From NCBI GenBank assembly GCA_903864915.1, contig CAIPHS010000001.1, forward strand, positions 1-41,635: a stretch of 41,635 nt of DNA. The letters are read 5' to 3'. The stretch is from an uncultured Candidatus Woesearchaeota archaeon (GTDB lineage: Archaea > Nanobdellota > Nanobdellia > UBA10117). Position 1 is the first letter of the stretch. Each line of letters starts with the position of its first letter. Below the pieces are notes generated by a model. That model was given only the letters and a program-made list of their open reading frames with translations, was not told where the DNA came from and did not search any database. Made by a program: the position numbers and the translations under genes. Shown here one piece after another: positions 29,780 through 39,919 of this stretch.

Positions 29780-30211
29780 CTAGTCAATCTTGCAGGTTTT
29801 GCGGGTACTTAATTTACGAAGCCCGGTTCTAAATTTGTCTGTGAACGTGGCAGCTTCCTGCTTTTCCATCTCACCTGTGAATATTATGCGGACGAAAGCT
29901 GGATTTGAATGATAATTCTCCGCAGGAGTTCTTTTGTAAAGGCTGGAATATTCAAAAACATTTATTTTGCAGCCGGGCAACTGGTATTCTGTCAGGATTT
30001 TGCATCTGCCGTGCCGGTTGCAAAAGCCTTCAAGAAAATATTTTTCATTAGACCGCAGGCTTTTGTCAAGGATGACTGATAAAAGGCTGCTTTGATCCTC
30101 TACCCTTCGCTCATTTACTTTCTGCGCCCCTTTTCCAAGCAGGTATTTTTCCAGAGGCAACTGGCCCTGCGAATCTTCCATTTTGCGTAAAAAATAGTGT
30201 GCCAATATCAT
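29780..30211 (-). CDS. unknown protein coupled to the roadblock-like gene
   Basis: 143 aa. It has five cysteines (GFCNRHGRCKIL; LPGCKI; KTCKID) and a beta strand FVRIIFTGEMEKQEA. No family is recognised. Its ATG overlaps the TGA of the upstream roadblock-like gene as ATGA, so the two are co-translated and probably act together. Confidence 0.55.
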   Translation of the reverse strand: MILAHYFLRKMEDSQGQLPLEKYLLGKGAQKVNERRVEDQSSLLSVILDKSLRSNEKYFLEGFCNRHGRCKILTEYQLPGCKINVFEYSSLYKRTPAENYHSNPAFVRIIFTGEMEKQEAATFTDKFRTGLRKLSTRKTCKID

Positions 30212-30633
30212 GTTTTCTCGCAGGGCATAGCCGGCCAGTCTGTATAAACTGGCATGTAATTCTTTGCAAAAGCAGTGTTTAGGATGGCATCAAGGCCTCC
30301 AAAATCATTCAGGTCGCCGGACCAGTTTTTCAGCTGTTCCGAATATTTATGTCCGACTTTCCGCATAAGATCATAAGCGATTTTCTGCCCGTCAAAGCCT
30401 GATTCCGTGACGACCGCGACATATGCGTCTTCAGCCCGTTCAACGCTTATGCTCCTGTCTTCGAAAACAATGCTTTTCAGGCCCTTCTTGAACGAGTCTT
30501 CTGCGAAGGCCTGGATGGCTGAGAACATTGAGCTGAGAACCTGGCTGTCTCTTGTAGGATCAAACTCGTTTGTCAGGTGCTTGATTTGTCTGCCGTCCCT
30601 GTAAACCAGAAAGACGTCTTTTACGCTGGTCAT
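30208..30633 (-). CDS. roadblock/longin-like domain protein
   Basis: 141 aa. It starts MTSVKDVFLVYRDGRQIKHL and continues DSQVLSSMFSAIQAFAEDSF, then LKSIVFEDRSISVERAEDAYVAVV. This is the strand-strand-helix-strand pattern of archaeal longin/roadblock-like domains often linked to small GTPase or signalling functions. The frame is open upstream into eL33 coding sequence, but that is caused by a frameshift there. An independent TATA-like CTTTTAAC (30654-30661) lies about 26 nt before ATG 30633. It is ATGA-coupled to the downstream 143-aa gene. Confidence 0.7.
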   Translation of the reverse strand: MTSVKDVFLVYRDGRQIKHLTNEFDPTRDSQVLSSMFSAIQAFAEDSFKKGLKSIVFEDRSISVERAEDAYVAVVTESGFDGQKIAYDLMRKVGHKYSEQLKNWSGDLNDFGGLDAILNTAFAKNYMPVYTDWPAMPCEKT

Positions 30634-30667
30634 AGTTATCGAACAAATAATAGTGTTAAAAGAGTTC

Positions 30668-30927
30668 TTACTCGATATCAACTTTGGCGCCAATTGCCTG
30701 TCCTGGGAGGCCTTTTCGGTGAAGTGAACGCGGGCAGCGCCTTTGCAGCCGTGCGCCTGTGTGATTTTGCCTTCAATTTTCTTGCCAGAAGGGGAAGTCC
30801 ATATAACTTTCTTGCCAACTATCTTGTGAACATCAGCTTTCTTGTCAATGCCCTCTACCTTAACAATCATCTGCTTGAGCTTCTTGACTTTCAAGCTTCC
30901 ACGGTAGTTGACAATGTAACCTTTCAT
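30668..30927 (-). CDS. rpl35ae: ribosomal protein eL33 (L35Ae) with a 1-nt frameshift
   Basis: It begins MKGYIVNYRGSLKVKKLKQM and continues IVGKKVIWTSPSGKKIEGKI and AHGCKGAARVHFTE, clear L35Ae. After HFTE the frame must shift: the alternative frame reads KGLPGQAIGAKVDIE and then TAA, the canonical family ending. The cause is GAAAAGGCC where GAAAAGGGCC is expected, one G missing at 30711-30712. With it restored the protein is 86 aa. All other codons are intact, so a sequencing/assembly error or very recent mutation is likelier than decay. It is leaderless from a TATA box at 30952-30957, shared with the divergent regulator. Confidence 0.85.
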
Positions 30928-30951
30928 GAAAAATGAGAGCGGAGAGTGGTT

Positions 30952-30957
30952 TTTAAA
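30952..30957. promoter_or_regulatory. single symmetric TATA box for eL33 and the ArsR-like regulator
   Basis: TTTAAA core; eL33 ATG 30927 is about 27 nt to one side and the regulator's ATG 30980 about 26 nt to the other. Both starts are leaderless. Binding of TBP in either orientation would choose between the two genes. Confidence 0.6.
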
Positions 30958-30979
30958 GCTTAGCTTTAAGCGTATTGGC

Positions 30980-31330
30980 ATGACTGATAATCTTGAAGGC
31001 AGGATGCCGGATCTACAACAGGTAAGGGCATGTGCCGATGCAATCCTGGCAATTGGAGACCCTACTAATTACAAGATAATAGAGTACATCCTTAAGGAAA
31101 ATAAGGCTGCTTTTGGAGAGATTAAAATGGAATTGAACATCAAATACAATAATGAACTGCAGTATCATTTGAAGATTTTAAAATCAAATAATCTTGTTGC
31201 CCAGAAATATGCCAGAGGGCCATATTTTATCCCTGCTGAAAGCAAGAATTTCATAGACAGGATTGCCCAGATAAGCAGGAATTTGGCAGATAAATTCCCG
31301 GAAAAGACAGAAGATTCTATTAAAAATTAA
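30980..31330 (+). CDS. ArsR-like winged-helix transcription regulator
   Basis: 116 aa. The DNA-binding domain is IGDPTNYKIIEYILKENKAAFGEI, then NNELQYHLKILKSNNLVAQK and a wing YARGPYFIP, as in ArsR-type regulators. No metal-binding cysteines are present, so it is not a classical metal sensor. It could regulate the shared promoter with eL33. Longer in-frame starts run through the promoter and are rejected. Confidence 0.78.
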   Translation: MTDNLEGRMPDLQQVRACADAILAIGDPTNYKIIEYILKENKAAFGEIKMELNIKYNNELQYHLKILKSNNLVAQKYARGPYFIPAESKNFIDRIAQISRNLADKFPEKTEDSIKN

Positions 31331-31340
31331 GAAAAAAGAG

Positions 31341-33179
31341 TTACGCTCCGATAACAATCTGCATGTCGTCTGAAAGTATCTTCTTCAGGCTTTCAATGGT
31401 GTGCTTGCTGATTGGTGTTGGCGTGCCTGCGAACTTTTCAAGAACAGCATCAATTTCCTTCAGATTGGCGTTCTCTTCCTTTCCAAAGCCGCCGTCTTTC
31501 TCAATCATGTACTTGTGGATTGCAGTTTTCGGGTCAGAAGTGTCTTTTATTACGAAAGCCATATTTGACAGGAGCCAAATGTCTGCTTTCTTATTTCCGT
31601 CATTGTAAGTGGCGGATATCTTGAACTTTTCCACTTTCTTTCCTTTTTCAGCCCGTATCAAATCGAAAGTGGCTTTAGCCAATCTATCTTCATCGAAAGT
31701 TAAAGTAGCAATCTCGCGCAAGTCTGCCTTATTCTCTTTCTTCAGCTCGGCAAGCTTCTCCAGCACTTCAGTAAACTTTGCGGGCGCGAGTTTCTTGGCA
31801 ATAAGATTCTTCTCAAATTGCTTTGCAGCGTCAGCCTCAGTTGCCTTAACACCAACCATGCCAAGTGCTGCTAGAATATCTTCAGTTACTTTATCATCGA
31901 GTTCTTTCAACTCATGTCTTGACTGCTTGATTTCCAAGTCTTTGACTAATTTGTCAAGTCTTTCGAGATATTTCTCAGACTTCTCGAATAATTCCTCAAC
32001 CTGTTTCGCTGTGACATCCTTGATTTTGCCGTGCTCGATATCTTTTCTGAACTGCAGGATTTCCTCGAGTATCTTGACCCATTTTTCTTCCAATAAGCCT
32101 GGCTTGACGAAATGTATTTTCATCTGTTCAGGTGTTTCCTTTGGGTCTGGGGGAGGAATTCCAATTAGCATCAAAGCTCCCTGTGATGGTGTCAATGTTG
32201 ACCAAAAGAAATCTTCCAGTGCGATTTCCTTCAGCTTGAATTTTGTCCTTTCCAGGATTTGCTTTCCCGATTTGATGAAAGAATCAACAGCTTCCGGAGA
32301 AGGCGTTATCTTTCCCTGTTTCAGCAAGAGTTTCCATGGCTGGAACATTCCCCTGTCGTACAACGGGATGCCGTCACGAAGCATGGTGAATATGACTGCG
32401 TTTGCAGACCTGATGGAATCCCACATTTCCGTAAGGATGTAAACTTGGATGTTCAGCTTGTTCTTGACACCGGCAGCCATGGCCGCTTCCTCAGCCATTC
32501 CCCATATCATTCCGCGTAATCGTGATCTTAATTCTGAGGCAGTCATCCTTGTGACGTCTGTGTCGTCGACAACGACAAACGTGTCGATGTCTGACTCTTC
32601 GGTTGCTCGTCCCTTGACCAGTGAGCCAGCCAGAACATAGGAAACAATATACTTCTCAAACTTTTTGAGTACCATTTGCTTGTGTATTTCAGTAACTCTT
32701 AATGCTCCCACCCATCCAGTGTCGTAGATTGGCATCGCCATCGCCAATAATCCGAGAATCTCATACTTGCCTTTACTGCACATGTCCCAGATTTCTTCCA
32801 GAATAACAGCAGAAGTATTGATCTTTTCGAGGTGCTTTGCACCCAGCTCTTTCAGCTTCTTTTCAATCTCGTCCTTTTTCTTGAATTTCTCGTCAAAGGC
32901 ACCTTCGATGTCAAGCAAGACCAGCATATCCAATGCTTGTCCCTCACCTTTTGGCGGCAGGACAACTATGCCCTTGATTTCCTTCTTGTATAATTTGATG
33001 GCTTCGTTCTTGAATTTCTCAGCCTTTGATTTTACAGATTCGAAGAATTCTTTAGCCTTCTTGGCCATATCTGCCTGTTTCAGGGCATCTATTTTGGCCA
33101 TTTCTTCAGGAGAAACGGGAGCCTTTGGAATATTTTGATTAATAGCATATTTTGGTTCTTCTGGTTGCTTTTTTGCCAT
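31341..33179 (-). CDS. double nucleotidyltransferase-fold protein with HEPN-like C-region
   Basis: 612 aa. An active-type pol-beta-family NTase domain has GSLVKGRATEESDIDTF (G185, S186; Asp 197 and 199), then VYILTEMWDSIRSANAVIFTMLRDGIPLYDRG. An HEPN-like helical part follows with RKDIEHG (R378-x4-H383), the usual Rx4-6H motif. The first 170 residues look like a second, degenerate NTase copy: LDMLVLLDIEG, then AVILEEIWDMC...MAMPIYDTGW, lacking GS and DxD. The last 180 residues are charged and helical. MNT-HEPN proteins can be toxin-antitoxin or nucleotide-transfer systems; here both are on one chain. TATA-like CTTATAAAC is about 27 nt before the ATG. Confidence 0.78.
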   Translation of the reverse strand: MAKKQPEEPKYAINQNIPKAPVSPEEMAKIDALKQADMAKKAKEFFESVKSKAEKFKNEAIKLYKKEIKGIVVLPPKGEGQALDMLVLLDIEGAFDEKFKKKDEIEKKLKELGAKHLEKINTSAVILEEIWDMCSKGKYEILGLLAMAMPIYDTGWVGALRVTEIHKQMVLKKFEKYIVSYVLAGSLVKGRATEESDIDTFVVVDDTDVTRMTASELRSRLRGMIWGMAEEAAMAAGVKNKLNIQVYILTEMWDSIRSANAVIFTMLRDGIPLYDRGMFQPWKLLLKQGKITPSPEAVDSFIKSGKQILERTKFKLKEIALEDFFWSTLTPSQGALMLIGIPPPDPKETPEQMKIHFVKPGLLEEKWVKILEEILQFRKDIEHGKIKDVTAKQVEELFEKSEKYLERLDKLVKDLEIKQSRHELKELDDKVTEDILAALGMVGVKATEADAAKQFEKNLIAKKLAPAKFTEVLEKLAELKKENKADLREIATLTFDEDRLAKATFDLIRAEKGKKVEKFKISATYNDGNKKADIWLLSNMAFVIKDTSDPKTAIHKYMIEKDGGFGKEENANLKEIDAVLEKFAGTPTPISKHTIESLKKILSDDMQIVIGA

Positions 33180-33288
33180 AAAAACAAGTCCTAAAATTTG
33201 TTTATAAGGCTTTGCGTTATGTTTGCTGGATTATACAATTGGGCCTTCAACCAGAAATTTTTATAAGTGTTTACAAGTACAAACATAC

Positions 33289-33489
33289 ATGACATACAGC
33301 AGCAACGCATCAATAAATTATGTTAGCAGCTATTCACCTAGCAGGAAGTTTGATGGTTCAAACAATGCCAGCGTAACCTACTCAACGCCCCAGTTTTACG
33401 CATCCAAAATGACGAAGGTGAATTATGATTTCTTCAAAACAAATGCGACATACACTGCACCGTCAGAAGCACAAATCTTTACGCTTTGA
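33289..33489 (+). CDS. small Ser/Tyr/Asn-rich protein
   Basis: 66 aa, start MTYSSNASINYVSSYSPSRK, low complexity, no hydrophobic helix, no family. ATG 33289 is about 27 nt after TTTTTATAAG (33257-33266), stronger evidence than the upstream open frame to 33223. TGTTT/AAACA flanking (about 33267-33284) gives a short inverted repeat between the TATA box and the start. It is transcribed against the two NTase-HEPN genes on either side. Confidence 0.5.
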   Translation: MTYSSNASINYVSSYSPSRKFDGSNNASVTYSTPQFYASKMTKVNYDFFKTNATYTAPSEAQIFTL

Positions 33490-33492
33490 TTT

Positions 33493-34344
33493 TTATTGCT
33501 TTTTCAGGAAATCGTGCTCGCCTTCCTTCGCGAGCTTTTCCATGATTCTTGTAAAATCATGCACGCGTCTGTACCATTTCTCAAGCACATCACCTTCAAT
33601 CCTGTGTACCTTGTGGTTCTTTATGTTGTGCGCAATAACGTAAAGCTCGGAATACCATTCAACATACTGCTTACTTAATTTATTTTTCTTGACATATGTT
33701 TCAGTAAGCATTTCTGCAATGTGTTCCGGCGAAGGCGGCGTCAGTCCCTTTACCATCAAAGCCGCATGTGCTGAATCAACCGTTGCCCAGTGCAAGTCAT
33801 CAATTGCAGACATAGTTTTTATCCTTGATCTCAGCAGGTGCATAGGCACTCGTGACAAAACTGTGTAGATTGCTTCTGAAGTAGGTCTTATCCTTCCCTG
33901 CATCAGCAAATATTTCAGCGGCTCAAAGAAACCCAGGTCAAGCAGGGCTATTCCATACCTGAGCATGTTGATGACTGTGGGGTCTCCAGCCCTTACATTA
34001 TCCCAGAAAGCAGAAAGCGCAACAGTGTTTACGTGCAATTTATCCCTGTTCGAATCACTCTTGATAATTTTGAATAATTCCTCGCGGTACCAGGAGACTA
34101 CTTCCTCATCCCAAACCATCGATACGTTATCAACAATAATGACTACGTCAATATCAGATTCCGGCTTTGGCGTGCCCTTGGCGGCTGAGCCGAATAAAAC
34201 AACAGATAATACCACAGGGCCAAATTGCTTGTACACTTTGGCCGCAAAATCATAAGCTATCTTGTAATCCTTTTCAGGAACGTTTGTCTTGCGCAATTCA
34301 TCCCTTTTTGTCGGAATCGGTAATTTCTTTTCAGCAATCGGCAT
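33493..34344 (-). CDS. nucleotidyltransferase-HEPN protein, paralogue of the 31.3-33.2 kb gene
   Basis: 283 aa. NTase motif VVLFGSAAKGTPKPESDIDVVII (G52, S53; Asp 64 and 66) here shortened to its key residues, then VALSAFWDNVRAGDPTVINMLRYGIALLDLG, matching the 612-aa protein's WD...MLRDGIPLYDRG. The second half is helical, HEPN-like (DDLHWATVDSAHAALMVKGL; ELYVIAHNIKNHK), but I see no clean RxxxxH there. Possible functions are nucleotide transfer to a protein or RNA. It has a strong Shine-Dalgarno sequence. Confidence 0.78.
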   Translation of the reverse strand: MPIAEKKLPIPTKRDELRKTNVPEKDYKIAYDFAAKVYKQFGPVVLSVVLFGSAAKGTPKPESDIDVVIIVDNVSMVWDEEVVSWYREELFKIIKSDSNRDKLHVNTVALSAFWDNVRAGDPTVINMLRYGIALLDLGFFEPLKYLLMQGRIRPTSEAIYTVLSRVPMHLLRSRIKTMSAIDDLHWATVDSAHAALMVKGLTPPSPEHIAEMLTETYVKKNKLSKQYVEWYSELYVIAHNIKNHKVHRIEGDVLEKWYRRVHDFTRIMEKLAKEGEHDFLKKQ

Positions 34345-34350
34345 TATACA

Positions 34351-34356
34351 TCCTCC
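34351..34356 (-). promoter_or_regulatory. strong Shine-Dalgarno sequence
   Basis: GGAGGA on the minus strand, 6 nt before ATG 34344. It is one of the few strong ribosome-binding sites in a mostly leaderless window and fixes the start. A TATA-like TTTATAA (34368-34375) lies just upstream, so this gene may have its own promoter or be read from the operon before it. Confidence 0.6.
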
Positions 34357-34404
34357 TTTTCTGTGCGATTATAAATATGGTTTATCACTCTTTCATCATT
34401 ATCA

Positions 34405-36288
34405 CTAAGCATTTGGTGTCCCTGCGAACTGGCTTCTCTGTGCAGTGCCTGGCACCGCTGCTAATGAAGGTGGCAGCCCCGTAAAGCCCGCACCGTATTC
34501 TGAATAGTGTATTGGTGGCAGCATCAAGCCATAACCTGCTGAGTAGGCGCTCGAACCCATGAAATAGCCTCCAGCCATCGGTGATTCGCCACCCCACGTA
34601 GGAGATCCCTGAAAGCCATAAGCTGGCGCATTGAAATATTGCATCGTTTTTATAGTTGGATTCTCACCAAAGTTCATTACATAGCCGCCAGCTTCAACTA
34701 TTCCCCTGATGTTTGGTGGAATCTTGCCATCTTTTTTCAACTGGTCAAGTATTTTTGTGATCGGCACATTGCCCATTCCAGGTGCAAGGTGCGCATCAAA
34801 AGAGCCGAAATTATCATGGATATGTACGTGTTTTACATCCTTTGCAAGATTCTTCAGTTCAGCAGCAATCTGGTCCTCATTATAGCCGTATCTTCTCATT
34901 AGGTTAATATGACCAACATCCCATGTGGCGCCAATGATATCTTCAGCAATTTTCTTTGCCGCGTCTGGTTTCAGGTTCTTATCGGAGACAAGCCTGTCCG
35001 CAAACATTTTTCTTGACGCATCAACAAGCGACTTCAAACTGTCTCCGCGCGCGAAGGCTTTATCGGTCTCGTTCTCAATTGTGATGATTGGTGCCTGTTC
35101 AACACCCATTATGCCCGCATCCCTTATGCCCTTCGCGTCTTCCTTGTTAAGAAATTTTTCAGGATGGCTTGAGATATCATAGCTCCTCATTGCCGCAGAA
35201 GCAAAAGTCTCAGCAGCCTTCGGAAGTGCAAATTCTTCAGCAGACTTGAAAAGCTTTGGTTTTGCCACAGCTAGTACGTGTGTGATTTTTGCCAGGTCTG
35301 GCGTCATAGCTTCATAGCTTTCGGCTTGTTGCACTTTCTTGTAACTTTGCGTAACAATATCTCTCATTTCAGGGCTGAATGCCTCTGGATTTGCACGATA
35401 TGCGTGGTCGAACGTAGTTGTTACGGCAGACATAAAGTCTTTAGAGTAAGCACGCTTTCTGTCCTCGAGTAAAGGTAGTTGTTCTGAGGGTGTGTTTTTG
35501 TCAGCTATTAACTGTTCAGTTCTTCTTATCTCCGCAAGATAATCGAGAGGTTTTCTTTTCATTTCATCCCACTGCGTTAAATTGTAATTTTCAAGCTTTT
35601 CCTTCGGCGACCAGAAGTGTCGCAAACCCGGAGCAGTCTCCCTGAACTCGCCCTGTATGGGTATCAATTGCCCGGAGACAGTGTCCACAGCAATCATCGC
35701 TTGCGGGATAATGCCTTTTAACAATGATTCCTTAAGTTCCTTGTGAGCATCTTTCTCGCCAACATTTTTTTCGTATGTTTCCAGTTCTCTTAGCATTTCA
35801 CCCGCTTTTTGAGTGTTATAAAAAGTCTGGTCTGCCGGAAGCTGGCTGGCATGGATGTTAAGAGGCACATTTGGGCCAACCAAAGCTGCCTTTTCAACAA
35901 TAGAATTAAGATGCTGTTGGGTGGCTCTCCATTGGTTTTCATCAAACTTGTTTTCTGAGAAGCCTGTTGCCTCCATCATGGGTGCGTGTATTGAAATTGG
36001 GGTAGGTCTGCCATCTTTGGTAAAATCGCGAATTAATAATTTGCCAAGCCTTCTGGCTTCCGCGAACATTTCCCGTGGTATGACTTCAAACTTTTGAGGG
36101 TCGATTACTGAAAGCTCGACATTTTCTATTCCGGAAGCCGGCAAGCTGAGCAAATCTTTCATTGCCTTGCCTGGTTCTAAGGACGTTGATGCGCCGAGAT
36201 AAGCATTCGCCCATTGGATGTTGCTTGGCGCTTTGTTAGGGTCCATTGCAGTCATATAAGAGCCGGCCTGTCCGTACATAGTAGGCAT
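34405..36288 (-). CDS. TIM-barrel protein (AP-endonuclease/xylose-isomerase-like) with Gly/Tyr/Pro-rich tail
   Basis: 627 aa. Barrel strands typical of sugar-phosphate isomerase/epimerase or endonuclease IV-like proteins include IENVELSVID, TPISIHAPMMEATG, PIITIENETD, ATWDVGHINLMRRYGY and VKHVHIHDNFGSFDAHL, with His, Glu, Asp and His in metal-ligand positions. A helical insertion (about residues 165-370) separates early and late strands. The last 80 residues are low complexity (FQGSPTWGGESPMAGG; YSEYGAGFTGLPPS). Substrate unknown. An AGGT lies 5 nt before the ATG. It is the third gene of a minus-strand operon. Confidence 0.7.
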   Translation of the reverse strand: MPTMYGQAGSYMTAMDPNKAPSNIQWANAYLGASTSLEPGKAMKDLLSLPASGIENVELSVIDPQKFEVIPREMFAEARRLGKLLIRDFTKDGRPTPISIHAPMMEATGFSENKFDENQWRATQQHLNSIVEKAALVGPNVPLNIHASQLPADQTFYNTQKAGEMLRELETYEKNVGEKDAHKELKESLLKGIIPQAMIAVDTVSGQLIPIQGEFRETAPGLRHFWSPKEKLENYNLTQWDEMKRKPLDYLAEIRRTEQLIADKNTPSEQLPLLEDRKRAYSKDFMSAVTTTFDHAYRANPEAFSPEMRDIVTQSYKKVQQAESYEAMTPDLAKITHVLAVAKPKLFKSAEEFALPKAAETFASAAMRSYDISSHPEKFLNKEDAKGIRDAGIMGVEQAPIITIENETDKAFARGDSLKSLVDASRKMFADRLVSDKNLKPDAAKKIAEDIIGATWDVGHINLMRRYGYNEDQIAAELKNLAKDVKHVHIHDNFGSFDAHLAPGMGNVPITKILDQLKKDGKIPPNIRGIVEAGGYVMNFGENPTIKTMQYFNAPAYGFQGSPTWGGESPMAGGYFMGSSAYSAGYGLMLPPIHYSEYGAGFTGLPPSLAAVPGTAQRSQFAGTPNA

Positions 36289-36300
36289 AGTTTACCTCAG

Positions 36301-36936
36301 TCAAACCCGTGTTTTATACTTTTCCTCAGTCTTTTTCCCTACTGAGAATACGTTTGAAATGTAATCAATAACTCTGGAGTAATCCGAGCTCCCAACTTCA
36401 CTTATTCCTAAAGATTCCTTTACAACATCAAAGACCTGCTTTTTTCGTTCTTCCGGCATAGCTTGCCATTCTTGCGGTGTAAATTTGTTTACAAGCTGCT
36501 GCTGTTCTGACAAATAAAAGCGCATGCTGTCAATCACTCTCTGGTGCTCATATGAGGCGGATGGTGGTGCATATTTGACGCCGGGGCCTGCTGCCGCAAC
36601 ATTAGTTGTTGGCTGGCTTTCCACTTCTTTTTCCAAAGTCGAGACTTGCTCCCTTCGCTGCACATATTTTATTGCTGGCAAAATCTCTCCGGCAGATATG
36701 TTGGGAGCAACTTCTGTTACAGACTCGAGTTTTTCCTCGAGAGGAACTTCCTTCTCAAATTTCTTTTCATGCCTAAGATGCTTTAAAGTTTCACCCAGAA
36801 GTTTCTGAACTTTCTTATTCAGCTTTGGCGTCTTAGTTTTCTTCAGAACAGATTCGAGATAATTCTTTTTATCATCAAGTGATTTAAGTTTTTCAAGTTC
36901 TTCCTTTACAGATTTAAGAGATAACTTTGCGATTAT
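36301..36936 (-). CDS. coiled-coil protein with a possible ATA start
   Basis: 211 aa if it starts at ATA 36936, which overlaps the upstream TAA as ATAA, matching the ATGA junctions seen elsewhere. The first canonical start is TTG 36681, but 85 codons before it are coherent coding sequence (LKSVKEELEKLKSLDDKKNY; LNKKVQKLLGETLKHLRHEK). The middle is flexible (PTTNVAAAGPGVKYAPPSAS) and the C-terminus is a compact helical domain (QQQLVNKFTPQEWQAMPEER). No family. A sequence error turning ATG to ATA is the other explanation. Confidence 0.6.
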   Translation of the reverse strand: MIAKLSLKSVKEELEKLKSLDDKKNYLESVLKKTKTPKLNKKVQKLLGETLKHLRHEKKFEKEVPLEEKLESVTEVAPNISAGEILPAIKYVQRREQVSTLEKEVESQPTTNVAAAGPGVKYAPPSASYEHQRVIDSMRFYLSEQQQLVNKFTPQEWQAMPEERKKQVFDVVKESLGISEVGSSDYSRVIDYISNVFSVGKKTEEKYKTRV

Positions 36937-38648
36937 GGAGGTGTTGGCATGCCGTGCTGTTTCTTGAAAACATCATAGACTTTGAATGACCCTTTTTTTG
37001 CATTTTCCTCAGCGACGAGCATCAGCCGTGCCATATTCCAGGCATCCTTGCCCCCTCGCACTGATTTTGGCAGGCTCTTGTAAATACCTTGTGCCTGCAT
37101 CTGGAATTTCTTTATTGTGCCAAATGTTTCTTTTATGAATTTTGGGAACGGGATTGCAAACTTAAGTTGCTTCTTCTCCTCTTTTTTCTCTTCTTTTTCT
37201 TCCTTCATGTATTTATCCAAATCATTGGACATTGCTTCAAGAGAATGCTTGGTCATGTCATCTACAAAGTCGAGGATTTCATCTTCCTTAAATTCCTTCA
37301 GAAGGTCTACGTGCTTCTTTTGCAGAGCATAACCAACAAACATGAAAACTTTCTTTCCGGTGAAGCCATAACCGCGCTCCTGCCTGGCTCCGACAACAGT
37401 TACTGGCGCACCCCTGAAAGCCATTCGCACTTCAATCGCAGTGAATGGCATGTCATTCTTACGTTCTTCAGAAAGTGCCAGCTCTTTTTTAATATAGCCA
37501 GGCATATTTACAACTTCCACCTTGGCGGCCTTTGTGCCTAAAAGTTCTAGATACATCTGAACTGAGTGGAAAGATGATGGCGTGGCTGCAGAGCCCAAGC
37601 CCAGTTCAGCATGCTTCTTCAGCATATCTTCGTATTCAACGGGCATCAGTTTGTTGGCTGCGATAAGATAGGGCCTCGCCCATTTTGTGTAGACTTTTAG
37701 GGCATCATTCTGCGCTTTCAGGTAAGATTTTTCCACATTGTAGCGCATTTTCAGCTCTTTTTCAGAAAGATAAATCCAGTCAATGAATTCCTTTACTCTG
37801 GGCCCAAGAATTCTTTTTACAACCTCTGTTAAGTCCATCTTTTTGACATTTTCAATTGCCTTGTCCTTGATTTCCGAGATTTTTTTGGAGTCAGCATCAG
37901 ACTTGTACCATTCATGCACGGGCACAATCATAAATGAGTCTCTTAATGTTATGAAATTCAGTTGCGCTGCCAACACATCTATTGCGGCATTTCCTTTGGT
38001 CTTGTCAACTTCGTTCAGCCATATGCCTTTCAGGGCATCCATCCCTGTTTGCTTTTGCCCAGGGCTTTGTGAGCTTATATCCTTGTAATGGCTGAGCCGC
38101 ACATCAAAAGTTTTCAGGTCATACAACAAATTGATCATAGATTTGATGACCATGTTGATGGTTCCGAAAAGCCCCTGGGCACCGCCTCCGCCCGCAATCC
38201 TTGATTCCATAGCAGTCCTTCGGCCGCCCATTTCACCGAAATAACCGGAAGATTCGGAGCTTGCAAAGAAATCTGCAGACTTTTCGACGTCGTAGTTAAG
38301 CGCTTCGCGCATGAAATCCAATACCCAGTAATAATCTGGCTCCATTGACTCGCCAAAAACATCATGAGTCAGGTTGTATGTTTCTATCGGGTCTCCTTTT
38401 AGCACCTGAGTTACGCTAAACTTCTTCTCTTTTAATTTCACATTAATTTCTCTTAGCAGTTTAGTCTTCTCTTTTTTTCTTTCATTTTCTGGATATGACT
38501 CGTCAATTTTTGCCAAAAGTAAATCAAGTTTGTTTCGGGCTTTGGTAAATTGTGTCTTGCCGCTTTTGTCTTTAGTGGCTGTGAGCTCCCCTATCTCTTT
38601 TTTGGCCTTCTCGCTAGTAGCTTTATATTTGTCTTCATCAGCAGCCAT
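36933..38648 (-). CDS. large unknown cytosolic protein
   Basis: 571 aa. The N-terminal 100 residues are charged coiled coil; the middle has DYYWVLDFMREALNYDVEK, a Gly-rich loop (AGGGGAQGLFG), long helices, and beta segments FTAIEVRMAFRGAPVTVVGA and KVFMFVGYALQKKHVDLLKEF. A Lys/Glu run (MKEEKEEKKEEKKQ) links to a C-terminal helical part. No catalytic motif or TM segment is seen. First gene of the operon with the coiled-coil and TIM-barrel proteins. The start follows a TTTAAAAAT stretch by about 25 nt. Confidence 0.6.
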   Translation of the reverse strand: MAADEDKYKATSEKAKKEIGELTATKDKSGKTQFTKARNKLDLLLAKIDESYPENERKKEKTKLLREINVKLKEKKFSVTQVLKGDPIETYNLTHDVFGESMEPDYYWVLDFMREALNYDVEKSADFFASSESSGYFGEMGGRRTAMESRIAGGGGAQGLFGTINMVIKSMINLLYDLKTFDVRLSHYKDISSQSPGQKQTGMDALKGIWLNEVDKTKGNAAIDVLAAQLNFITLRDSFMIVPVHEWYKSDADSKKISEIKDKAIENVKKMDLTEVVKRILGPRVKEFIDWIYLSEKELKMRYNVEKSYLKAQNDALKVYTKWARPYLIAANKLMPVEYEDMLKKHAELGLGSAATPSSFHSVQMYLELLGTKAAKVEVVNMPGYIKKELALSEERKNDMPFTAIEVRMAFRGAPVTVVGARQERGYGFTGKKVFMFVGYALQKKHVDLLKEFKEDEILDFVDDMTKHSLEAMSNDLDKYMKEEKEEKKEEKKQLKFAIPFPKFIKETFGTIKKFQMQAQGIYKSLPKSVRGGKDAWNMARLMLVAEENAKKGSFKVYDVFKKQHGMPTPP

Positions 38649-38732: not shown

Positions 38733-39122
38733 ATGGCATGGTTCAAGAAAAAGAGAAAAGATGACTATCTCGAAGTAACTCCGCCTGCAGAAGAAGGCGG
38801 TTACGGGCCGGCAGGTTATCCTGGAATGCCGCCGCAAGGCATGCCTCCGCAGAACCAGGGAATGCCTGGAATGGAGAATATGCCAGCACCGGAATTCCCG
38901 CCGATGCAGCAACAGATGCCTCCACCACTCATGCCGGCATCAATGGGCCAGTCGATGGGATCACCTCCTGAAATGGAGCACCTGAGGCAGCAGGTTGAAT
39001 CAATAAATTACAAACTTGACACTTTGAAAGCAGTACTTGACTCAATAAACAGCAGGCTTGCCAATGTAGAATCTGCATTGAAGGCTTCCCCGACAGAAAG
39101 GGGCGAAGGCTGGACCTACTAA
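38733..39122 (+). CDS. Pro/Met/Gln-rich protein with C-terminal coiled coil
   Basis: 129 aa. It starts MAWFKKKRKDDYLEVTPP, followed by about 60 residues of Pro/Met/Gln/Gly repeats (PGMPPQGMPPQNQGMPGM) and a coiled coil with leucine-type heptads (LRQQVESINYKLDTLKAVLD). The order suggests an adaptor, with a basic amphipathic N-terminus, flexible linker and oligomerising end. AATTTATATACT about 27-30 nt before the ATG sets the start. Its stop overlaps the next ATG (TAATG). Confidence 0.65.
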   Translation: MAWFKKKRKDDYLEVTPPAEEGGYGPAGYPGMPPQGMPPQNQGMPGMENMPAPEFPPMQQQMPPPLMPASMGQSMGSPPEMEHLRQQVESINYKLDTLKAVLDSINSRLANVESALKASPTERGEGWTY

Positions 39123-39919
39123 TGGGGTTCCTTAACACCTACTTCATCCAACCGATTTATACAGATTCAAGCTACAATCTTGTCAACACAACGGTTTATG
39201 CCCTGATTGCGATTGCTGCCCTGTTTGGCATCTACAAGATACTGCAGAAACTCAATTTCAAGGTTGACAACAGGTTTTTCTATGCACTTTTGCCATTCAT
39301 AGTGTTCGGCTCATCAGTAAGGGCTCTTGTGGACCATGAAATCCTTAAGTCTGGTTTTTGGTTTGTCAGCCCAGGCATTTATCTCCTGACTGCAGCAATT
39401 TTCCTGGGAATATTCTTTTTGTCATATTTTATCGGAAAACACAAGGGTGAAAATGCCTGGAAACGCACCTTAATTTCAGGCATCTTGTTAGATGCGATTT
39501 TATGGACCTATGCAGCTTCAAAAAGCATCAAGTTCACAAATCTAATTTACGGCGCCGGAATCATTTGCCTTGCTTTGCTGGCCAGCATAATCCTATATTT
39601 CATTTTCAGGAAGACCAAATTCATAGGCGGAAAATATTTCCTGCCGTTCCCGGCACACATGTTTGATGCATCAGCTACTTTTATCGCAGTTGATTTTTTG
39701 GGAGCTATTGAAAAGCATCCGTTGCCAAACATGATCAGCAGTTTTGTCGGCACAGCCGCAATAATGTATGCACTAAAACTGATTGTGCTGATACCTTTGA
39801 TGTATTTGTTGAACAAGGAGTTCAAGGACAAGAACTTTGTAGCTTATTTGGCAATCGCGATAGCAGTTTTGGGTCTTGCGGAAGGCCTCAGGGATTTGCT
39901 GACAATAATTATTGTTTAG
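39122..39919 (+). CDS. DUF63 archaeal membrane protein
   Basis: 265 aa, about eight TM segments. DUF63 marks are YNLVNTTVYALIAIAALFGIYK, FIVFGSSVRALVDHEIL, SGFWFVSPGIYLLTAAIF and HMFDASATFIAVDF. The family is archaeal and of unknown function. It is translationally coupled to the coiled-coil adaptor-like gene through TAATG. It converges with the CBS gene. Confidence 0.85.
   Translation: MGFLNTYFIQPIYTDSSYNLVNTTVYALIAIAALFGIYKILQKLNFKVDNRFFYALLPFIVFGSSVRALVDHEILKSGFWFVSPGIYLLTAAIFLGIFFLSYFIGKHKGENAWKRTLISGILLDAILWTYAASKSIKFTNLIYGAGIICLALLASIILYFIFRKTKFIGGKYFLPFPAHMFDASATFIAVDFLGAIEKHPLPNMISSFVGTAAIMYALKLIVLIPLMYLLNKEFKDKNFVAYLAIAIAVLGLAEGLRDLLTIIIV

Follow-up and report, generated by a model that had tools for sequence, protein, structure and literature searches.

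Several described systems combine a nucleotidyltransferase (NTase) domain with HEPN helices, and these provide the closest points of comparison for the locus reported here, a cluster of five minus-strand genes at positions 31341 to 38648 of a 41,635-nucleotide stretch of DNA (contig CAIPHS010000001.1, assembly GCA_903864915.1; hereafter, the window) from an uncultured Candidatus Woesearchaeota archaeon. In MntA-HepT (HEPN-MNT, type VII), an NTase with the motif GSX10DXD is accompanied by a HEPN helical domain. KNTase and AadA join an NTase to a HEPN-like substrate-binding domain in a single chain, and GlnE carries two NTase domains and helical domains per chain. HEPN fused to MNT has been proposed to be a domesticated substrate-binding or regulatory domain that came from toxin-antitoxin systems (PMC3710099). 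A TIM barrel with conserved His, Glu and Asp positions at a metal site characterizes MJ1311 and the PF01261 epimerase-endonuclease IV superfamily. Additionally, the excerpts that concern us in the survey of DPANN dark matter by Makarova, Wolf and Koonin (2019, PMC6393860) list the families cls.004259 (NEQ050, MNT fused to HEPN) and cls.004340 (NEQ484, alpha-helical) as DPANN-specific, of housekeeping context and of high priority.

From upstream to downstream, the locus encodes P571 (36933..38648), a mostly helical protein of 571 amino acids; P211 (36301..36936), which has N-terminal helices and a disordered part; a 627-amino-acid Xylose-isomerase-like TIM barrel (34405..36288; hereafter, TIM), assigned to PF01261 by a score above the cut-off, by profile and by conservation; P283 (33493..34344), a KNTase-like NTase with a HEPN-like helical domain, supported by PF01909 and conservation; and P612 (31341..33179), in which profile comparison and an AlphaFold2 (AF2) model place a degenerate NTase, an active NTase, HEPN and a C-terminal domain. 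The end of P571 lies within the start of P211 (a 4-base overlap in the window), and the spacings that follow are 12 bases to TIM, 60 between TIM and P283, and 313 between P283 and P612. A preliminary description of this DNA had put five genes at these positions and proposed them as a candidate undescribed system; all five are present, and its domain calls (metal TIM barrel, NTase-HEPN, helical protein, coiled coil and low-complexity tail) were correct. Because they are conserved throughout the phylum, we regard the five open reading frames (ORFs) as real genes rather than chance occurrences. The proposal of a system also stands, in that this is a conserved set of uncharacterised proteins whose operon we did not find described in the literature.

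Each of the known systems covers only part of what is seen at the locus. The MntA motif is invariant in the P283 and P612 families, but here the NTase and HEPN domains are fused, near-universal and accompanied by a putative scaffold and a TIM partner. The MntA family model gave short matches of 28.7 and 19.7 bits against a curated cut-off of 60; those to HalB and in PADLOC were short as well, the HalB score being far below its cut-off and the PADLOC matches limited to the short NTase core. There is no separate HEPN toxin with RX4-6H, the HEPN domains being fused and that of P283 lacking the motif arginine. KNTase and AadA are the best fold match of P612, yet the genes here are archaeal and stand in a housekeeping, multi-gene context, and the NCBIfam models for aminoglycoside nucleotidyltransferases (ANT) gave no more than 22 bits, where the cut-offs lie at 193-595. 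In contrast to GlnE, P612 has one degenerate NTase and a different C-terminal domain; no GlnE or GlnD model was among the Pfam or NCBIfam matches, and the similarity is one of fold only. Relative to MJ1311 and the PF01261 superfamily, TIM adds a central insertion, a tail that ends in a motif, and the proposed scaffold partner.

By description and distribution only, the NTase-HEPN and P571 families very probably correspond to cls.004259 and cls.004340, respectively. In the excerpts of that survey the two are listed singly, and nothing is said of an operon, of a partner with a TIM barrel or a coiled coil, of the structure of paralogues or of active sites (PMC6393860); the nine Nanopusillus-order genomes that we reached included none that fits N. 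equitans. As excerpted from Castelle 2021 (PMC8204110), Woese- and Pacearchaeota have in common a module of 51 families, most of them unknown, which may include genes of the cluster. Our literature search recovered individual families and no account of the operon, parts of which had been catalogued before.

The genomes that we could reach were sampled by kinship, and all presence counts refer to a single phylum, Nanobdellota. We take this phylum to include the Woesearchaeota, Pacearchaeota and Nanoarchaeota metagenome-assembled genomes to which the named relatives belong; the scan for named loci (alignment A4) is represented by the best 80 of 513 matches, and another alignment, A3, was too divergent for patterns to be read. 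Of 110 near-complete genomes drawn evenly from the whole phylum, profile searches found P571 in 108, TIM in 108 and NTase-HEPN in all 110. Among 56 related genomes, 55 had TIM, 52 had P571 and 54 were matched by the P612 query. A tree of the NTases resolves three clades, S (P283), M (about 340-400 amino acids) and L (P612), with M and L as sisters (support 1.0). The P612 profile matched 236 of 237 genomes, a count that covers both L-type proteins and the shorter paralogues that the profile also picks up; full-length L-type proteins are present in most, and some families, which score just about 1e-40 to 1e-75, seem to be without the long form. Relatives that individually lose these genes, which had been named as grounds for abandoning the idea of a system, were almost never seen. 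Genome G023 has P571, TIM and the L-type gene, and its S-type gene is divided between two overlapping ORFs, with the break at the NTase/HEPN border (C1:276940-277684).

Gene order is conserved as well, although not for every member. P571 and TIM occur together in 107 genomes. In 85 of them the two share a contig, and 77 of the 85 place P571 upstream, at no more than 3.5 kb from TIM and in the same orientation. The median gap of 700 bases leaves room for P211. Among loci taken by hand, the same order was found in 22 of 26 families, and TIM is immediately followed by an S-type NTase in 48 of the 68 genomes that carry the two on the same contig. The earlier view of the first three genes as an operon is borne out by this order, which is kept across the phylum and in part includes P283. 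P612, by comparison, occurs in the cluster solely within the taxonomic order of the window; elsewhere an M paralogue (about 350-400 amino acids) occupies its place, or the L-type gene lies apart, so the conservation of order that had been suggested as a check holds for P571-TIM and TIM-P283 and fails for P612. In family f19, P571 lies away from TIM and is divergent beside a gene (locus L085) for an NTase of the M type, the sister clade to P612.

The active site of TIM is nearly invariant. TIM matches PF01261 with 36.5 bits against a gathering score of 31.1 (E 5.6e-9), and among proteins of solved structure MJ1311 is nearest to it (profile E 7.6e-21), followed by D-tagatose, psicose and ribulose-phosphate epimerases. 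It has a large central insertion and a Gly/Tyr/Pro/Ala-rich tail of 60-80 residues. The metal or active-site residues of its C-terminal half (34693..35076, minus strand) are E405, D457, H460, H489, D498, H500 and E532, kept in 42-47 of 47 relatives, and two more, H101 and H146, are encoded outside this segment, further upstream. E405, D457 and H460 are kept in all 47 relatives; H101, H146, H489 and E532 in 46; H500 in 44; and D498 in 42. Four of these (E405, D457, H489, E532) are the E, D, H and E metal ligands of PF01261, and all nine positions, which we presume to be equivalent to the endonuclease IV ligands, carry His, Glu or Asp in 42-47 of 47; MJ1311 appears to have the same pattern. No endonuclease IV was among the TIM sequence matches. 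A scan of genome contigs with TIM alone as query gave no match.

TIM ends in the motif FAGTPNA (34408..34428, minus strand), for which the family form at the C-termini of relatives is [FW][ST]GxP[ML]x or WS[GE]xP[LM]E. The last seven residues fit the motif in 36 of 47 proteins, and the tail ahead of it is variable. Because the motif persists while the preceding tail drifts, it may serve as a docking peptide. We note that N. equitans NEQ368, a 293-amino-acid "putative endonuclease" of the endonuclease IV arCOG and among the most abundant proteins of that organism (PMC3149612), could be a reduced counterpart of TIM.

Both NTase-HEPN proteins match PF01909 (E 4.5e-11 for P283, 2.1e-6 for P612). 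The catalytic GS...DxD motif of P283 (G52-D66; 34147..34191, minus strand) is invariant in 44 of 44 relatives, with G52, S53, D64, D66 and H104 unchanged throughout. P612 had been called a double NTase, which is correct by descent: residues 40-165 (32685..33062, minus strand) align with its own catalytic NTase (hhalign probability 98.2, E 4e-14). This N-terminal copy is degenerate, however, so the call does not extend to a second active site, and the GS...DxD motif is kept solely in residues 166-300 (G185-D199; 32583..32627, minus strand), where G185, S186, G190, D197 and D199 are invariant in 70 relatives. In the HEPN domain of P612, the RX4H-like motif RKDIEH (R378-H383; 32031..32048, minus strand) is partly conserved, with R378 in 20 of 23, H383 in 15 of 23 (Tyr in 7) and K379 and E382 invariant. 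The AF2 model of P612 has a pLDDT of 88, and its catalytic part resembles KNTase/AadA, MNT and GlnE (Foldseek best E 0.001, probability 1.0 to 0.9); no match was assigned to the C-terminal part (about 420-612). By analogy with other MNT fusions, the HEPN domains of P283 and P612 fit the role of a domesticated substrate-binding domain.

P571 and P211 match nothing in Pfam. For P571, isolated weak matches among 40 members were all that Pfam gave, and a comparison with sequences of the Protein Data Bank (PDB) gave nothing significant. Its AF2 model, built from an alignment of 40 relatives, has a pLDDT of 84 and a pTM of 0.73, and a Foldseek search against PDB and viral structures returned nothing at E<=0.001. 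On these searches we reject the assignment of P571 to a known family; we propose that it is a scaffold. P211, which has no Pfam match, is a fast-evolving coiled coil whose counterparts are joined by weak pairwise homology: a same-strand gene of about 100-235 amino acids sits between P571 and TIM in 23 loci. We propose it as a flexible adaptor. The P211 frame has no canonical start codon; it is open from 36972, and no ATG, GTG or TTG occurs upstream of 36681, where TTG is the first canonical start. Its N-terminus nonetheless matches the positional counterpart in one relative (pairwise E 2.6e-4), and therefore we consider it coding, through an unusual start or a sequence error. One possible start is the ATA/ATC at the P571 stop, the alternative being an error in the sequence (window 36301-36972, minus strand).

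We tentatively favor, at a little under even chances, the view that these genes specify a multi-enzyme complex with a housekeeping role in the cytoplasm, one that carries out nucleotidyl transfer and is plausibly linked to translation or RNA. It is plausible that the gene products form one physical complex, probably an essential one, given that nearly every member of the phylum carries the genes, many of them side by side. What the data show is conservation, gene order, intact active sites, a P571 without recognizable fold, and the genomic context; complex formation, the reaction, the direction of transfer and the substrate are what we infer, as follows. P571 would be the scaffold and P211 a flexible adaptor on the complex, to which the metal-dependent TIM enzyme would dock by the conserved peptide at its C-terminus. 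The KNTase-like NTases, one or two of them, would pass a nucleoside monophosphate (NMP), probably adenosine monophosphate (AMP), to a substrate held by the HEPN domains, and the endonuclease IV/epimerase-like TIM barrel may trim or prepare the acceptor. The substrate may belong to translation or to RNA, the ends of tRNA or rRNA being one example, as suggested by neighbors such as ABCE1/RLI and L35Ae. We count in favor of such a complex the near-universality, the gene order, the near-invariant active sites, the translation neighbors and the place of P571 beside an M-type NTase in f19, as well as the fact that the P612 analogues KNTase, AadA, MNT and GlnE adenylylate small molecules, HepT or glutamine synthetase.

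Other observations weigh on the opposite side. The L-type gene is unlinked from the core outside the taxonomic order of the window. The S-type NTase was undetected, apart from weak short matches, in genome G035, and therefore the set is not strictly indivisible. An RNase step by the HEPN domain of P612 is doubtful because H383 is replaced by Tyr in 7 of 23. The ribosomal neighborhood can be passive inheritance, and the TIM chemistry could equally be sugar epimerisation.

The principal competing explanation, which we judge unlikely but deserving of serious attention, is a GlnE-like protein-AMPylating regulatory complex, in which the NTases adenylylate one or a few cellular proteins and TIM provides or senses a small-molecule signal. 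P612 does carry HEPN helices alongside two NTases, one degenerate and one active, its model matches both GlnE halves (1v4a, probability 0.98; 3k7d, probability 0.90), and MNT-fused HEPN is regarded as substrate-binding or regulatory (PMC3710099). No GlnE-family sequence match accompanies the fold similarity, however, the Foldseek E-values are weak (0.001-0.05), and the gene context is translational, not metabolic. A further alternative is a carbohydrate or nucleotide-sugar pathway, in which a TIM sugar epimerase would yield a product nucleotidylated by KNTase-like enzymes. KNTase-like enzymes act on aminoglycoside sugar hydroxyls, and, among solved structures, TIM comes closest to MJ1311 and the epimerases named above. 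We nevertheless find this pathway rather improbable: recurrent sugar-metabolism neighbors are missing around the core loci, neither a scaffold nor a tail would be expected, and the genes are universal even where nearly all metabolism has been lost, including in N. acidilobi (PMC4935971).

Near-universality speaks against a toxin-antitoxin or defence module of the MntA/HepT kind, for which the NTase-HEPN domains count, which the preliminary description had mentioned as one setting of such domains, and which Makarova et al. (2019, PMC6393860), in the excerpt on the DPANN MNT-HEPN cluster, considered most probable while calling its conservation unusual. The patchy, mobile distribution expected of MntA/HepT was not seen (236/237 and 110/110 genomes), and in about half of the genomes the S-type gene keeps a position that is conserved by vertical descent. 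Because the genes are near-universal and vertically inherited at a conserved place, this reading fails; together with the low family scores and the fused HEPN domains, of which that of P283 lacks the RX4H arginine, we hold it to be very improbable. The genes could instead be independent housekeeping genes with no shared function, left adjacent by slow rearrangement, and DUF63, L35Ae and ABCE1 are indeed also kept nearby without an obvious link. We give this little credence, as the P571-TIM order, with its tight spacing, recurs in 22 of 26 families whereas no other neighbor is seen in more than 30 of 53 core loci, and P571 adjoins another NTase once it is away from TIM.

Nanobdellota are among the largest archaeal phyla, and they have shed most metabolism and are mostly host-dependent. 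When organisms that have given up nearly all else still retain a set of genes, those genes should be indispensable. A bolder form of the nucleotidyl-transfer complex, which we judge unlikely but worth keeping in view, is a phylum-defining and possibly essential RNA- or ribosome-maintenance machine with a new scaffold fold, a metal TIM phosphoesterase-like enzyme and domesticated MNT-HEPN proteins, without counterpart in other life. Joining two families that appear to be listed dark matter with a TIM barrel and paralogous NTases in a conserved operon turns separate unknowns into one testable complex, in which a toxin-antitoxin-type domain pair has apparently been recruited as core machinery.

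The cluster limits of 31341-38648 given previously enclose the five genes, yet the conserved unit reaches further, to a divergent plus-strand pair at 38733-39919. The first of the pair encodes a 129-amino-acid protein (38733..39122) with a basic N-terminus, a Gly/Pro/Met-rich middle, a coiled coil and the aromatic C-terminus GEGWTY. Its family lies within 3 kb of the P571 5' end in 22 of 42 P571 loci (21 divergent), in addition to the window; it is without known family, and its conserved aromatic C-terminus (WTY/WHF) is reminiscent of the TIM tail. The second is a DUF63 membrane protein (39122..39919; PF01889, E 5.2e-63), found near P571 in 28 of 42 loci; in 29 of 30, spread over 16 families, it lies no more than 4 kb from the core.

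On the other side of the core, a recurrent L35Ae N-terminal domain is fused to a longer ORF (30208..30981, minus strand; PF01247, E 5.4e-11). L35Ae, its identity confirmed, recurs close to the core (21 loci, from 13 families); in the window the domain continues into a C-terminal extension (257 amino acids versus 86 for L35Ae in relatives), a possible fusion. ABCE1/RLI, also of confirmed identity, is near the core in 19 loci of 12 families at a median of 2.5 kb. An OBG-like GTPase, Trm1 and TFB are found further out, and in the Nanopusillus order SecY follows TIM. Tandem arrays of an unassigned paralogous family, about 165-210 amino acids long, stand beside the P612 orthologue in at least 15 named loci (among the best 80 of 513 matches). 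One example, L136:5986-6525, has no Pfam or NCBIfam match, and the arrays lie downstream of the L-type NTase in loci L102, L104, L110, L114, L133, L134, L136, L148 and L150.

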